NCBI GenBank assembly: GCA_018267915.1
Contig: JAFDXN010000060.1
Location: 62,001 to 126,000, forward strand
Direction: 5' to 3'
Origin: Bacteroidota bacterium
GTDB taxonomy: Bacteria; Bacteroidota; Bacteroidia; Chitinophagales; Chitinophagaceae
Length of the DNA stretch: 64,000 nucleotides
Position 1 is the first letter of the stretch. The number at the start of each line of letters is the position of its first letter. This document shows, in pieces, positions 8,897 to 60,908 of this stretch. The notes beneath the pieces are model-generated. The model had not been told where the DNA came from. It did not search any database and saw only the letters and a list, made by a program, of their open reading frames with translations. A program made the translations under genes and the position numbers.

Positions 8897-9565
8897 CTAA
8901 AAACGGGCGGCCAGTCCCATACAGATGATACCTTTGTAGCCGTAGCCAAGCTCAAAGAAAAAGGACAGTGGGCCGTTGCTTTTGATCCCAAGAGGAGTGA
9001 ACTGCCCGTTTAAATGGGTGGACTGCTCATGGGTTACCTCGTCCTGAGCCAGTGGTTGCGTGATGTAAGGGCGGCTGTTGTAATAGTCTTTGCTAAGTGT
9101 GCTGGTGGCCCTGTACAACGTGATGCCCGGAGCAAGGCCACCGTACAGTTGAAAGCGCTGCTTGTCGATGACAATGAATGTAAACTCCAGAGCGGCGGTG
9201 TAGGCGCAACGGTCGTATTTGCCGATTATCGCATTGTCACTTTGCTTTGAGTAATTGGTACGGTTACCTTTTTGATAATCCGCACCCAAGGCGGCTCCTA
9301 CCGCAAGCCAGTTAGCAACATAGTATCTGTAGGCAATAAAGTCAGCCCCTGAAATGATTTGAGGGAAATCGAAACCGGTGTCATAATTTGTCTTGATACC
9401 TATCAACTGGTCTGTGCTGAAGGCGCCTGCGCTGATGCGGATCTCGTGCCGGCCATACCATATTGCAGAGCCCAGGTCGTTGGTTGCAGGATTGTAATTA
9501 TATTGTGCCGATGCAGTGGACAAGAACAGTGTGAATAATATGATTGTTGATAAAGTTTTGGTCAT
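8897..9565 (-). CDS. Predicted outer-membrane beta-barrel protein, paralog of the next gene
   Basis: 222 residues beginning with a signal peptide (MTKTLSTIILFTLFLSTASA, cleavage before QYNYN). The mature protein shows alternating hydrophobic and aromatic strands and ends in MGLAARF, a terminal aromatic residue typical of outer-membrane barrels. It shares a distinctive framework with the gene at 9627-10307: GRHEIR, a DQ-GI segment, NxSNYSK/NRTNYSK, YDRC, the QLYGG/QMYGG segment, then LG(I/L)KSNGP and FFELGYGY. The two are clear tandem duplicates. Function is unknown. Confidence 0.7.
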   Translation of the reverse strand: MTKTLSTIILFTLFLSTASAQYNYNPATNDLGSAIWYGRHEIRISAGAFSTDQLIGIKTNYDTGFDFPQIISGADFIAYRYYVANWLAVGAALGADYQKGNRTNYSKQSDNAIIGKYDRCAYTAALEFTFIVIDKQRFQLYGGLAPGITLYRATSTLSKDYYNSRPYITQPLAQDEVTHEQSTHLNGQFTPLGIKSNGPLSFFFELGYGYKGIICMGLAARF

Positions 9566-9626
9566 AATAAGATCTTATTGTTGATGAGCATAAATAGTGC
9601 CAAATCATAACCGTTCGTTGAGCACC

Positions 9627-10307
9627 TTACAAGCGCCCGGCAACGCCTAATACTATCATCCCCCTGTAACCATATCCCAGCTCGAAGAAAACAGAAAAAG
9701 GTCCGTTACTTTTTAGACCCAGAGCTGTCACCTGCCAGCACGGATAGGTGTCGCGCACATGAAGCGGATTGGAAGTTTGTGATAGATTGTAACCTACTAC
9801 CGTCCTGTTATTCCAATAAGCAGTGTCAAAATAGGTATTGGCCTTATACAGTGTATAGCCGCCTTCGATGCCACCGTACATTTGAAAGCCAAAATCGTCG
9901 ACATAAATAAAGGTGATGCCCAGGGCGGCAGACCAGGAGCAGCGATCATAGGTGCCAATGGTAAGGTTGGGATAAGTTTTGGAGTAATTACTGGCATTAC
10001 CATTCTGATAATCGACTGCGCCAGTGAGGCTGATCGCCATCCAATCGACCGGGTAAAACCTATATCCAAGTGAAACGGCTGTAGAGATGGTCTTAGGAAA
10101 ATCGAATTTTGTTTGTTCGGCCGTACTGATGCCTCTTATCTGGTCGGCACTGAGCGCGCCTATATCCAGCCTGATCTCATGCCGGCCAAGCTCTGAAACT
10201 GAGCTGTAGCTGCCCGGGTCGTAGTGGGAAAAACGAAAGTGTTGCGCCTCCGCAACATTCGTTATAGAAAAAAGCAGGAAAAAGGCTCTAAGTAATGTTT
10301 GACGCAT
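9627..10307 (-). CDS. Predicted outer-membrane beta-barrel protein, tandem paralog
   Basis: 226 residues starting at ATG 10307, where a signal peptide (MRQTLLRAFFLLFSITNVAEA) begins; a start 54 bp upstream would bury it. It shares GRHEIRLDIGALSADQIRGI, NASNYSK, YDRCSW, LGLKSNGPFSVFFELGYGY and a terminal VLGVAGRL with its downstream neighbour. A 61-bp gap separates the pair, which are probably co-transcribed. Probably surface-exposed; no function can be assigned. Confidence 0.7.
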   Translation of the reverse strand: MRQTLLRAFFLLFSITNVAEAQHFRFSHYDPGSYSSVSELGRHEIRLDIGALSADQIRGISTAEQTKFDFPKTISTAVSLGYRFYPVDWMAISLTGAVDYQNGNASNYSKTYPNLTIGTYDRCSWSAALGITFIYVDDFGFQMYGGIEGGYTLYKANTYFDTAYWNNRTVVGYNLSQTSNPLHVRDTYPCWQVTALGLKSNGPFSVFFELGYGYRGMIVLGVAGRL

Positions 10308-10348
10308 ACATATTAGTGTGTGCATTTGAGTGCATAAATAATGCCAAA

Positions 10349-11236
10349 TTAATACCGGCAAAACCCCTTGCCGTGGCGTATCTCTACGCAGTCTTTCTTC
10401 GGCACTTCGCGGAAGCCATCGGGCGGCAGGCCGTATTTGGGGCTGCCGAACTTGCGCCGGGTAATCTTGTAGTAATAGAAAGTGTAGGGATCGTCAGGGT
10501 CGCGGGTGCACTTGGGAGGGTATTTTACTTCGGTGATCTGCGGGCCGATATCCCCCTGCTGTGCGGCAACAGCCGTTACCGCACAGCGTCCCTCCTCGAA
10601 GGAGGAATTCAGTACCGGTTCATTGCCTATGTATTGCCTATGCTGTGCCTGTGGGTTTTCTGTGGGGCTTCGATCGCCGGGAGCTTCCACATCCCCCTGT
10701 TCTGCGTCAACATTCGTTTCCGCAGAACGTCCCCCCTCAAGGGGGGAACCGTCATTTTCATCTCCCCAGTTGTAGGCGACCTCGTGGGATTTGATGCCGT
10801 TCATTTCGCGGCCCTGAAGGACTTCCTGAGCGTAGTCGGTGACCTGCTGGGCAAGTGTGATATCCCGGAGGCCGATGCGGGTGATGAGGTTTTGCATGAC
10901 ATCGATACTGGCGCCTACGGATACCTGCTTCTGTATATTATTAATGCAGACGATGAGCTTGCGCATGGTCTCTGCCTCCTTTAACGTAGGAAACCGGTTG
11001 CCTTCATCACGTGCATCGATCGCCTCGTTGAGTGCGGCTAACTGGTTGAAATACTGCTCGACAAGAATGGCGGGTGTGCGCCGTGCTGCCAGTTTTATTT
11101 CCTTCCATTTGCCATGTTTGACCCACAGGTTTACTGTTTTAGGGTCAACGCCGACGCGGCGGGCAATTTCGGCCTGGGAATGATCTGTAGCGAAAAAGAG
11201 ATCGCGTGCTGTTTGCTGTTCGGATGATTTTTTCAT
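10349..11236 (-). CDS. HTH protein (phage terminase small-subunit-like) with two in-frame palindromic inserts
   Basis: 295 residues. Residues about 8-45 form a helix-turn-helix (HSQAEIARRVGVDPKTVNLW) like those of phage terminase small subunits and transposase-type DNA-binding domains. A helical region follows to about 155. The middle (about 160-235) is low-complexity and encoded by two copies of a palindromic DNA element, giving the related peptides EGGRSAETNVDAEQGD and EEGRCAVTAVAAQQGD. The last 60 residues are rich in K, Y and P (DPYTFYYYKITRRKFG) and unrecognised. No phage genes are nearby, so this may be a domesticated or host gene. The repeat array at 11.24-12.11 kb begins 5 bp before its ATG and would lie in its promoter or leader. 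Function unknown. Confidence 0.7.
   Translation of the reverse strand: MKKSSEQQTARDLFFATDHSQAEIARRVGVDPKTVNLWVKHGKWKEIKLAARRTPAILVEQYFNQLAALNEAIDARDEGNRFPTLKEAETMRKLIVCINNIQKQVSVGASIDVMQNLITRIGLRDITLAQQVTDYAQEVLQGREMNGIKSHEVAYNWGDENDGSPLEGGRSAETNVDAEQGDVEAPGDRSPTENPQAQHRQYIGNEPVLNSSFEEGRCAVTAVAAQQGDIGPQITEVKYPPKCTRDPDDPYTFYYYKITRRKFGSPKYGLPPDGFREVPKKDCVEIRHGKGFCRY
10551..10610. repeat. Palindromic element copy A inside the HTH gene
   Basis: Two hairpins: CTGTGCGG pairs with CCGCACAG (8 bp), then CCTCCT, loop CGA, AGGAGG (6 bp). It opens with TCCCCCTG. Copy B begins 141 bp downstream, a multiple of three, so both copies are read in the same frame. Confidence 0.8.
10692..10750. repeat. Palindromic element copy B inside the HTH gene
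   Basis: Same layout as copy A with different stem sequences: TTCTGCG pairs with CGCAGAA, then CCCCCCT pairs with AGGGGGG. Several differences from copy A occur on both arms and preserve pairing, so hairpin structure rather than sequence is conserved. Confidence 0.8.
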
Positions 11237-11240
11237 AGTT

Positions 11241-11271
11241 GTTTAGTAGTTAGTAGTTAGTAGTTAGTAGA
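11241..11271. repeat. 7-bp tandem repeat next to the HTH start codon
   Basis: About four copies of TTAGTAG, beginning 5 bp upstream of the HTH gene ATG. It forms the near edge of the larger array. Confidence 0.7.
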
Positions 11272-11280
11272 GAGTATTTA

Positions 11281-12110
11281 GTCGTAAATCTTAAGTTGAA
11301 AGCTGTATTTGCAATATGTAAGCGCGAGGGGCACAAGTATGCTATCCTCATGGCCGCCCTACATACTTGCGCCGGTAGAGTATTTAGTCGTAAGTCATAA
11401 GTTGAAAGCTGTAATTGTAACATGTAAGCGCGAGGCGCACAAGTATGCTATCCCCCATGGCCGCCCTACATACTTGCGCCGGCAGAGTACTTAGTCGTAA
11501 GTCGTAAGTTATAAGTCATATGTCGTAAGTCGTAAGCTTTATTTGCAATATGTGAGCGGGAGGGGCACAAGTATGCTATCCTCATGGCCGCCCTACATAC
11601 TTGCGCCGGCAGAGTCGTAAGTTATTAGTCATAAGTCATAAGTCGTAAGTCATAAGTCATAAGTCGTAAGTCATAAATTGAAAGCTGGAATTGTAACATG
11701 TAAGCGCGAGGGGCACAAGTATGCTATCCTCATGGCCGCCCTACATACCTGCGCCGGCAGAGCCGGCAGAGTCGTAAGTTGTAAGTCGTAAGTTATAAGT
11801 CATATGTCGTAATTCGAAAGCTTTATTTGCAATATGTGAGCGGGAGGGGCACAAGTATGCTATCCTCATGGCCGCCCTACATACTTGCGCCGGCAGAGTT
11901 ATTAGTCATAAGTCATAAGTCGTAAGTCATAAATTGAAAGCTGGAATTGCAACATGTAAGCGCGAGGGGTACAAGTATGCTATCCTCATGGCCGCCCTAC
12001 ATACTTGCGCCGGCACAAGAGTACTTAGTCGTAAGTCGTAAGTTATAAGTCATAAGTCGTAAGTGTTAGCAGAAAGCTGTATTGCGACATATGGACGCCA
12101 AGGCATGCTA
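11281..12110. repeat. Higher-order minisatellite of six palindromic units with 7-bp spacer repeats
   Basis: Six cores of about 84 bp each contain CAAGTATG and, about 20 bases later, its inverse CATACTTG. The left arms start at 11334, 11440, 11568, 11716, 11852 and 11972; one copy has CATACCTG. The pairing extends to GGC/GCC with one A-C mismatch. Cores 3 and 5 share GCTTTATTTGCAATATGTGAG; cores 2, 4 and 6 share an AATTG(T/C)AACATGTAAG form, so two subtypes alternate. Spacers are tandem GTCRTAA heptamers with variants, giving steps of 106-148 bp. A decayed seventh copy lies at 12071-12110. No coding sequence is credible here. The array fills the gap between the divergent HTH and adhesin genes. 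Confidence 0.9.
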
Positions 12111-56909: not shown

Positions 56910-57521
56910 TAAATTTAAGAACTTTTATAATAAATGAGGCGCAAAGGTACGGTTTATTTGTTTCGCTTCCGCTTTTAATGTGTTAATTGATTAATAAGTT
57001 GAAAGGTTGACAGGTTGATAGGTTGAGAAGTTTAAGCGGTCGTTTTGCTAAAATGCCCGAATCGGGCATAATAACGAAAATCGGGCTTCTTGTTGATAGG
57101 TAATTGATATTCAGGCGTTAACTGAAATGCCGATGCCCGAACCATGCCTGATCTGTGCCCGACTCCGTTGAAATGTCACGCCAAATCCGGGGGTATCACT
57201 AAATTGAAAAAGTGTGTAAAATACTGATCTGAGATTCATAGTTTTTATAGGTTGCCGGCGTGAAAGTAGCCGGATGGTTACAAAGTTCGGATGGGTTTTT
57301 GAGAGTAAAAAATAAAGCTTCAATTTTTTGATCGAGGCGCAAAGGGGAGGTAATATGGCTGTTTTACGGCAATCTGAAGATTGCCTGCTGGTGGGACGAA
57401 GTCGGAAGACTTCGCCCAACTTGGAAGACTTCGCCCAACTTGGGCCTGTTTGAAATCACACGTGGTACGAAGCAATAATATGGACAAGGCAAGCGTGACA
57501 ATTCCCCTCATTTACGAGCAA
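56910..57521. other. Gene-free stretch with one REP copy
   Basis: 612 bp without a convincing gene. It contains short 10-bp direct repeats (GGTTGA variants near 57000-57025), a stretch with CCCGAATCGGGC (57056-57067), and the REP-like element at 57340-57441. A weak 102-residue frame on the minus strand (57111-57419) starts inside the REP and is not believed. Confidence 0.6.
57340..57441 (+). repeat. REP-like double hairpin, copy 1
   Basis: Hairpin 1 GCAATCT-GA-AGATTGC (57369-57384); hairpin 2 CGAAGTC-GGAA-GACTTCG (57397-57414); then a tandem GAAGACTTCGCCCAACTTG-type 19-bp repeat. About 30 bp upstream also match copy 3. It lies 2.2 kb from the nearest RAYT gene. Confidence 0.88.
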
Positions 57522-60654: not shown

Positions 60655-60785
60655 GCAGGTAATATAGCAATCTGAAGATTGCCTGCCGGTGGGACGAAGT
60701 CGGAAGACTTCGCCCAACTTGAAAGACTTCCCGGTGGGACGAAGTCGGAAGACTTCGCCCAACTTGAAAGACTTCGCCCAACTTG
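60655..60785 (+). repeat. REP-like copies 2 (partly duplicated)
   Basis: Hairpin 1 at 60667-60682, then two tandem blocks of the CGAAGTC hairpin with GAAGACTTCGCCCAACTTG repeats. It begins 2 bp upstream of the RAYT start codon. Confidence 0.85.
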
Positions 60786-60786
60786 A

Positions 60787-60908
60787 GCAAAGGCAGGTAG
60801 CGTAGCTGTTTTACGGCAATCTGAAGATTGCCTGCCGGTGGGACGAAGTCGGAAGACTTCGCCCAACTTAAAGACTTCGCCCAACTTGACGAAGTCGGAA
60901 GACCCACC
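60787..60908 (+). repeat. REP-like copy 3
   Basis: Shares the sequence GCTGTTTTACGGCAATCTG with copy 1 at 57340-57441; hairpins at 60816-60831 and 60844-60861, then GAAGACTTCGCCCAACTT repeats and a partial GAAGTCGGAAGAC. Confidence 0.85.

Follow-up and report, generated by a model that had tools for sequence, protein, structure and literature searches.

Are two palindromic stretches inside one protein-coding gene inserted DNA repeats, or do they belong to an ordinary protein linker? The gene lies in the window, the whole 64,000-nt stretch of a Chitinophagaceae contig that was analysed. The original prediction regarded the two stretches as in-frame elements, possibly a Bacteroidota counterpart of the Rickettsia palindromic elements (RPE). 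In-frame palindromic elements have so far been best known from Rickettsia and from a few REP-tagged genes.

The two copies and their host gene

Two copies of a 62-nt, two-hairpin element were found in the window, both on the minus strand and in frame within a single gene (Table 1). The mechanical repeat search returned matching stretches at 10550-10607 and 10691-10748 (plus-strand coordinates), which share 79% identity. Their starts are 141 bp apart, as predicted, and the differing stems quoted for the two related copies were also found in the sequence; the reading strand is the minus strand. The element plan includes a C-rich/G-rich hairpin, then a second hypervariable hairpin, and then a tail of the AGGGGG(A/T)T type. 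In each window copy, hairpin 1 is of the CCCCCCTTGAGGGGGG type and hairpin 2 of the GTTCTGCG..CGCAGAAC type; the third conserved part is the unpaired tail AGGGGGAT. The window copies fold far better than their dinucleotide shuffles (z -5.2 and -5.3). The length of the element is 62-64 nt, or 90 nt when a nested insert is present.

Table 1. Positions of the host gene, its parts and the two element copies in the window
Feature	Position	Strand	Details or basis
Host gene, TerS-like (terminase-small-subunit-like) DNA-binding protein, 295 aa	10349..11236	minus	ORF; Pfam Terminase_5; phrog_4151
Conserved N-terminal helical part with HTH, residues 1-142	10811..11236	minus	12-paralogue alignment; AlphaFold2; HTH matches with middling Z
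Predicted-disordered linker, residues 143-243, containing both copies	10508..10810	minus	pLDDT <50 throughout
Copy 1 of the element	10688-10749	minus	hairpin 1 10729-10749; hairpin 2 10699-10728; tail 10688-10698
Copy 1 peptide			SPLEGGRSAETNVDAEQGDV
Copy 2 of the element	10547-10608	minus	hairpin 1 10589-10607; hairpin 2 10558-10587; tail 10547-10557
Copy 2 peptide			SSFEEGRCAVTAVAAQQGDI

The host protein matched Pfam Terminase_5 just above the cut-off (21.8 bits; cut-off 20.3) and phrog_4151, a DNA-binding protein (E=1.1e-27), and the PHROGs of terminase small subunits gave weak scores. Terminase_5 represents the N-terminal part of the gpP-like subunit, and the N-terminal HTH of the host protein fits the terminase models. 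The AlphaFold2 model of the N-terminal part has pLDDT values mostly of 53-89; the fold search returned HTH-type matches alone, with middling scores.

The own genome contains 13 paralogues of the host gene on at least nine contigs, which comprise 11.8 kb or about 0.26% of the genome. A role of the host protein in phage DNA packaging is therefore doubtful. Among the 61 relatives searched, the family is large in this genus only (13, 8, 8, 20 and 2 matches), and a scan with the single protein picked up one relative, which belongs to the MAG Bacteroidetes bacterium 46-16. The N-terminal ~150 residues of the paralogues are conserved and are followed by a variable linker; many paralogues end with a motif like FSIGDAIYYIKKK. 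One TerS-like paralogue (L014/L050, at the end of G000:C27) is apparently cut short and lies beside IS3-type transposase genes.

Copies, stem pairing and turnover within the genus

Further copies were found by genome searches. Blastn against the own genome revealed four further places beyond copy 1, all in paralogues of the window gene. The covariance-model search that had been proposed was performed over five genomes of the genus, and full-length copies were found in three of them: eight in the own genome, four in G003, and five in G002 (two of these five are cut by contig ends). All 17 copies lie within genes of the TerS-like family, in one orientation and in one hairpin-2 frame; the copy at L008 has lost 2 nt, and a frame shift follows it. 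Since some sites are common to sister paralogues and orthologues, the 17 copies correspond to about 10 separate ones. The 5' flanks at these sites are unrelated, and several copies have about 40 bp of 3' flank in common (SPAPQPDQGTE-like). In window-type copies the spacing between the hairpins is 1 nt less than in most others, which changes the reading frame of hairpin 1 but not that of hairpin 2.

Each copy has 3-5 open frames of the six, so openness alone is insufficient to explain why all 17 are read in one frame. The used frame was the most acidic in 13 of the 14 copies tested, and the net charge was negative in 30 of 30 long linkers. Disorder propensity (TOP-IDP) was rejected as the reason for the frame choice: the frames showed no clear difference in it, and charge alone separates them. 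Simple patterns of the other linker palindrome families gave 18, 7, 5 and 3 forward matches versus 0 reverse; these counts leave out the CTTCTCCA..TGGAGAAG type. The pattern of the focal element matched only six copies, and its orientation was taken from the 17-copy comparison instead. The counts of orientation and frame are not independent, since shared descent and recombination contribute to them.

Compensatory stem changes had been claimed from the two window copies, and the claim extends to an alignment of 10 copies, with 500 shuffles as the control. Standard pairs occupy 95.3% of the stem cells versus 84.8% in the shuffles. Both sides have changed in 10 of 17 stem pairs, and none of the 500 shuffles equalled this number. 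When the structure was shifted by 1-3 columns, only 43-64% of the positions were paired. Hairpin-templated mutation is known for quasi-palindromes; the pairing may be preserved through this process or through selection on the hairpin.

The linkers in the element-carrying genomes are mosaics of palindromic peptides, including SLSFGEGRGEA, PSPLVEKGPGDE, APPLFLGEVPEGGRGQLA, RHPELVSGP, SLRGTKQS, and others. Their hairpin density of 2.8 per kb is about 10 times that of the coding background (0.26); in the N-domain parts of these genes it is 0.05. The linker sequence varies fast, and comparison with 464 kb of the own genome revealed only three short matching places outside the window gene. The palindromes are not all exclusive to linkers; the CCCTCTCC..GGAGAGGG type was also found elsewhere by the whole-genome pattern search. 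Apart from the coding linkers, a general excess of hairpins near the TerS-like genes was also rejected, the density there being not clearly above that of other intergenic DNA.

Turnover was observed between closely similar paralogues. For example, the DNA of L007, L010 and L011 is closely similar on either side of the linker start, yet different palindromes are found there. Smaller palindromes are also nested inside larger ones, with length differences of +21, +24 and +27 nt, each a multiple of three. Copy 1 is common to the orthologues in G002 and G003 and is therefore older than the split of these related species, whereas copy 2 is absent from both. Neither outcome that would have refuted the prediction occurred: the genome searches gave further copies, and the two copies are not present together in every orthologue. 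Since copy 1 is common to three species, the pattern partly reflects vertical descent. No clean empty site with identical flanks was found for the whole element; the paralogue comparisons showed replacement rather than simple gain.

Relatives outside the genus, known repeats and origin

Matches of the covariance model (E <= 1e-4) were found in 16 of 296 Chitinophagaceae genomes, including four of this genus. The matches in G197 and G291 are mostly intergenic. In G122, the three best matches lie inside Terminase_2-type TerS-like genes, and one of them is reversed (L217/L273); forward orientation was therefore rejected as a universal rule. This Terminase_2-type family, assigned mainly via phrog_51 with a weak Pfam match (one gene, below the cut-off), is unrelated to the TerS-like family of the window. 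It is also expanded, with 19 matches at L259-L282 versus 3 and 2 in the relatives of G122. Copies close to TerS-like genes were found in G062 and G194. Short forms near the TerS-like genes of G001 and G004 gave 14 model matches (E <= 0.1) in 95 kb, compared with 2 in 200 kb of the G001 background; the two sets differ in genome make-up, so the contrast gives a lead and not a quantified enrichment.

The RPE are in-frame palindromic repeats within protein genes and comprise several families, in each of which a peptide recurs (PMC10969869). The present element is similarly in frame in ORFs, with all 17 copies in the frame of the family, and it is likened to the RPE in these features. The RPE are about 150 bp long and occur in many unrelated genes; whereas the present element has 62-64 nt and is concentrated in one paralogous TerS-like family of the genus, with a second, unrelated TerS-like family in G122. 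The analogy with Rickettsia is largely right: its in-frame part holds, and its part concerning many unrelated genes does not. The element looks like a Bacteroidota counterpart of the Rickettsia elements that is confined to one kind of gene, and its concentration in a multicopy TerS-like family is distinct from the known in-frame palindromes.

The CGTC REPs have no known transposase, and the CGTC and GTAG REPs occur in frame in various genes (PMC3733652). The tnpA_REP genes of subclass 2.4, which are common in Bacteroidetes and cyanobacteria, also have in-frame REPs (PMC6006769). The present element resembles the REPs in its short hairpins and in its mostly intergenic, partly intragenic location in other genomes. 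However, it has two hairpins and a tail, contains no GTAG tag, and is not located beside Y1 genes in the own genome; moreover, its host is a TerS-like family rather than a transposase. GACG (CGTC on the other strand) adjoins hairpin 1 in the two window copies and in some further copies; most of the remaining ones have GACA there. The AT at the stem start, described for the CGTC REPs (PMC3733652), is missing. The flanks of the Y1/RAYT genes in the own genome lack the element, and no convincing model match was found at these genes. In G122, G197 and G291, three of eight Y1 genes have a model match within about 500 bp; those genes have their own, different palindromes. An RAYT was rejected as the cognate mobiliser, since the flanking palindromes of the Y1 genes differ from the element. 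Y1-transposase genes were also observed within about 1.5 kb of TerS-like genes, once in G000 and twice in G003 (L071, L074, L065).

We consider it probable, with considerable reserve, that disordered linkers tolerate REP/RPE-like palindromes, that frame and acidity act as filters on them, and that both insertion and recombination between paralogues have spread them. Such palindromic DNA repeats would have entered the predicted-disordered linker of a TerS-like DNA-binding protein. This linker might tolerate extra residues, so that insertions would survive wherever their orientation, frame and length did not interrupt the reading frame; of the possible frames, the one encoding an acidic peptide would usually be retained. 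The element would be mobile, and its copies might have been distributed and replaced across the 13-20 paralogues through further insertion (palindromes within palindromes) and recombination between paralogues. At the nucleic-acid level, either hairpin-templated correction or selection acting on the hairpin would maintain the stem pairing. Insertion and spread are supported by the placement of all 17 copies, the covariation, turnover and nesting, the hairpin density and the acidic frame, and also by the homologous, mostly intergenic elements in other genera and the recurrence in TerS-like genes of G122. Against this explanation stand the partly vertical descent, the non-independence of the copies, and the failure to find a mobilising enzyme or a clean empty site.

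A possible but clearly less likely explanation is that one or a few insertions of the element into an ancestral TerS-like gene were followed by gene duplication and by gene conversion between paralogues, with little independent insertion. The single orientation and frame of all copies, the common 3' flank of several of them, and the sites common to sister paralogues are consistent with it. However, such a history accounts poorly for about 10 sites with unrelated 5' flanks and for the restriction of copy 2 to its own gene; moreover, homologous elements occur outside the family in other genera, and a similar pattern was found in an unrelated TerS family.

We regard it as improbable that the hairpins instead function at the RNA level, within the mRNA or as a small RNA, with the coding frame secondary. 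The structured RNA whalefall-1 has been reported from whale-fall metagenomes only, as a noncoding RNA (PMC2864571). Its Rfam model (RF01762) aligned from end to end with the best copy (32.6 bits, E=6.5e-5), and this alignment includes hairpin 1, CAG, hairpin 2 and the CAGGGKGA tail. The stem covariation and the constant orientation relative to transcription within the genus would also fit an RNA. However, the score is below the curated cut-off of 37 bits, which was reached by none of the 296 Chitinophagaceae genomes, and the present copies are protein-coding. The constant frame is not explained by an RNA function, and the reversed copy inside the G122 TerS-like gene also argues against it. In view of the resemblance, whalefall-1 may be a member of a palindromic DNA repeat family despite its classification as a noncoding RNA. 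An ordinary low-complexity linker with accidental palindromes, consistent with the predicted disorder and fast variation, is refuted by the covariation and the intergenic relatives, and also disagrees with the hairpin density.

Beyond tolerated insertion and spread, the expanded orphan TerS-like families and the repeats might be functionally linked, since several genera, and two TerS superfamilies unrelated to each other, have repeats accumulated within or next to genes of this sort. On this reading, which is speculative and rather unlikely, the palindromes could be bound or guided by the proteins, or be of benefit to them, and the linkers would be exchangeable cassette arrays that diversify the proteins. 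In this Bacteroidota genus, a single multicopy gene family houses several palindromic repeat families, whose hairpins have been preserved along with their peptides. They provide a natural series for how selfish repeats turn into protein sequence.

Surroundings of the TerS-like genes and other window features

A promoter-like conserved stretch, TGTGGATAT(C/G)...TTTG...TACCTTTG, was observed about 85-210 bp upstream of TerS-like genes. Of the 51 family genes, 21 have it (0.015 expected per 450 bp), including those at L012, L016-L018, L115, L021, L131, L140, L038, L116, L121, L129, L133, L147, and others. Short, gene-specific direct repeats (e.g. GGGACAT, TGCAGTT, CAGGAAATAAC), resembling iterons or binding-site arrays, are located just 3' of the TerS-like genes at L038, L116, L121, L129, L147, L143, L016 and L117, and inside the linkers at L105, L113 and L123.

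Upstream of the host gene (11243-12064), 7-bp repeats (TTAGTAG, AGTCGTA) alternate with six units of about 104 bp. Each unit contains a long palindrome, GGCGCAAGTATG..CATACTTGTGCC, and similar palindromes were found upstream of other paralogues. Elsewhere in the window, tandem repeats with units such as GGAAGACTTCGCCCAACTT are located at 57404-57443 and 60686-60887. Two adjacent similar genes of the minus strand (8897-9565 and 9627-10361) have no Pfam match, and a 26-bp sequence accompanying them is common to positions 9588 and 10332.
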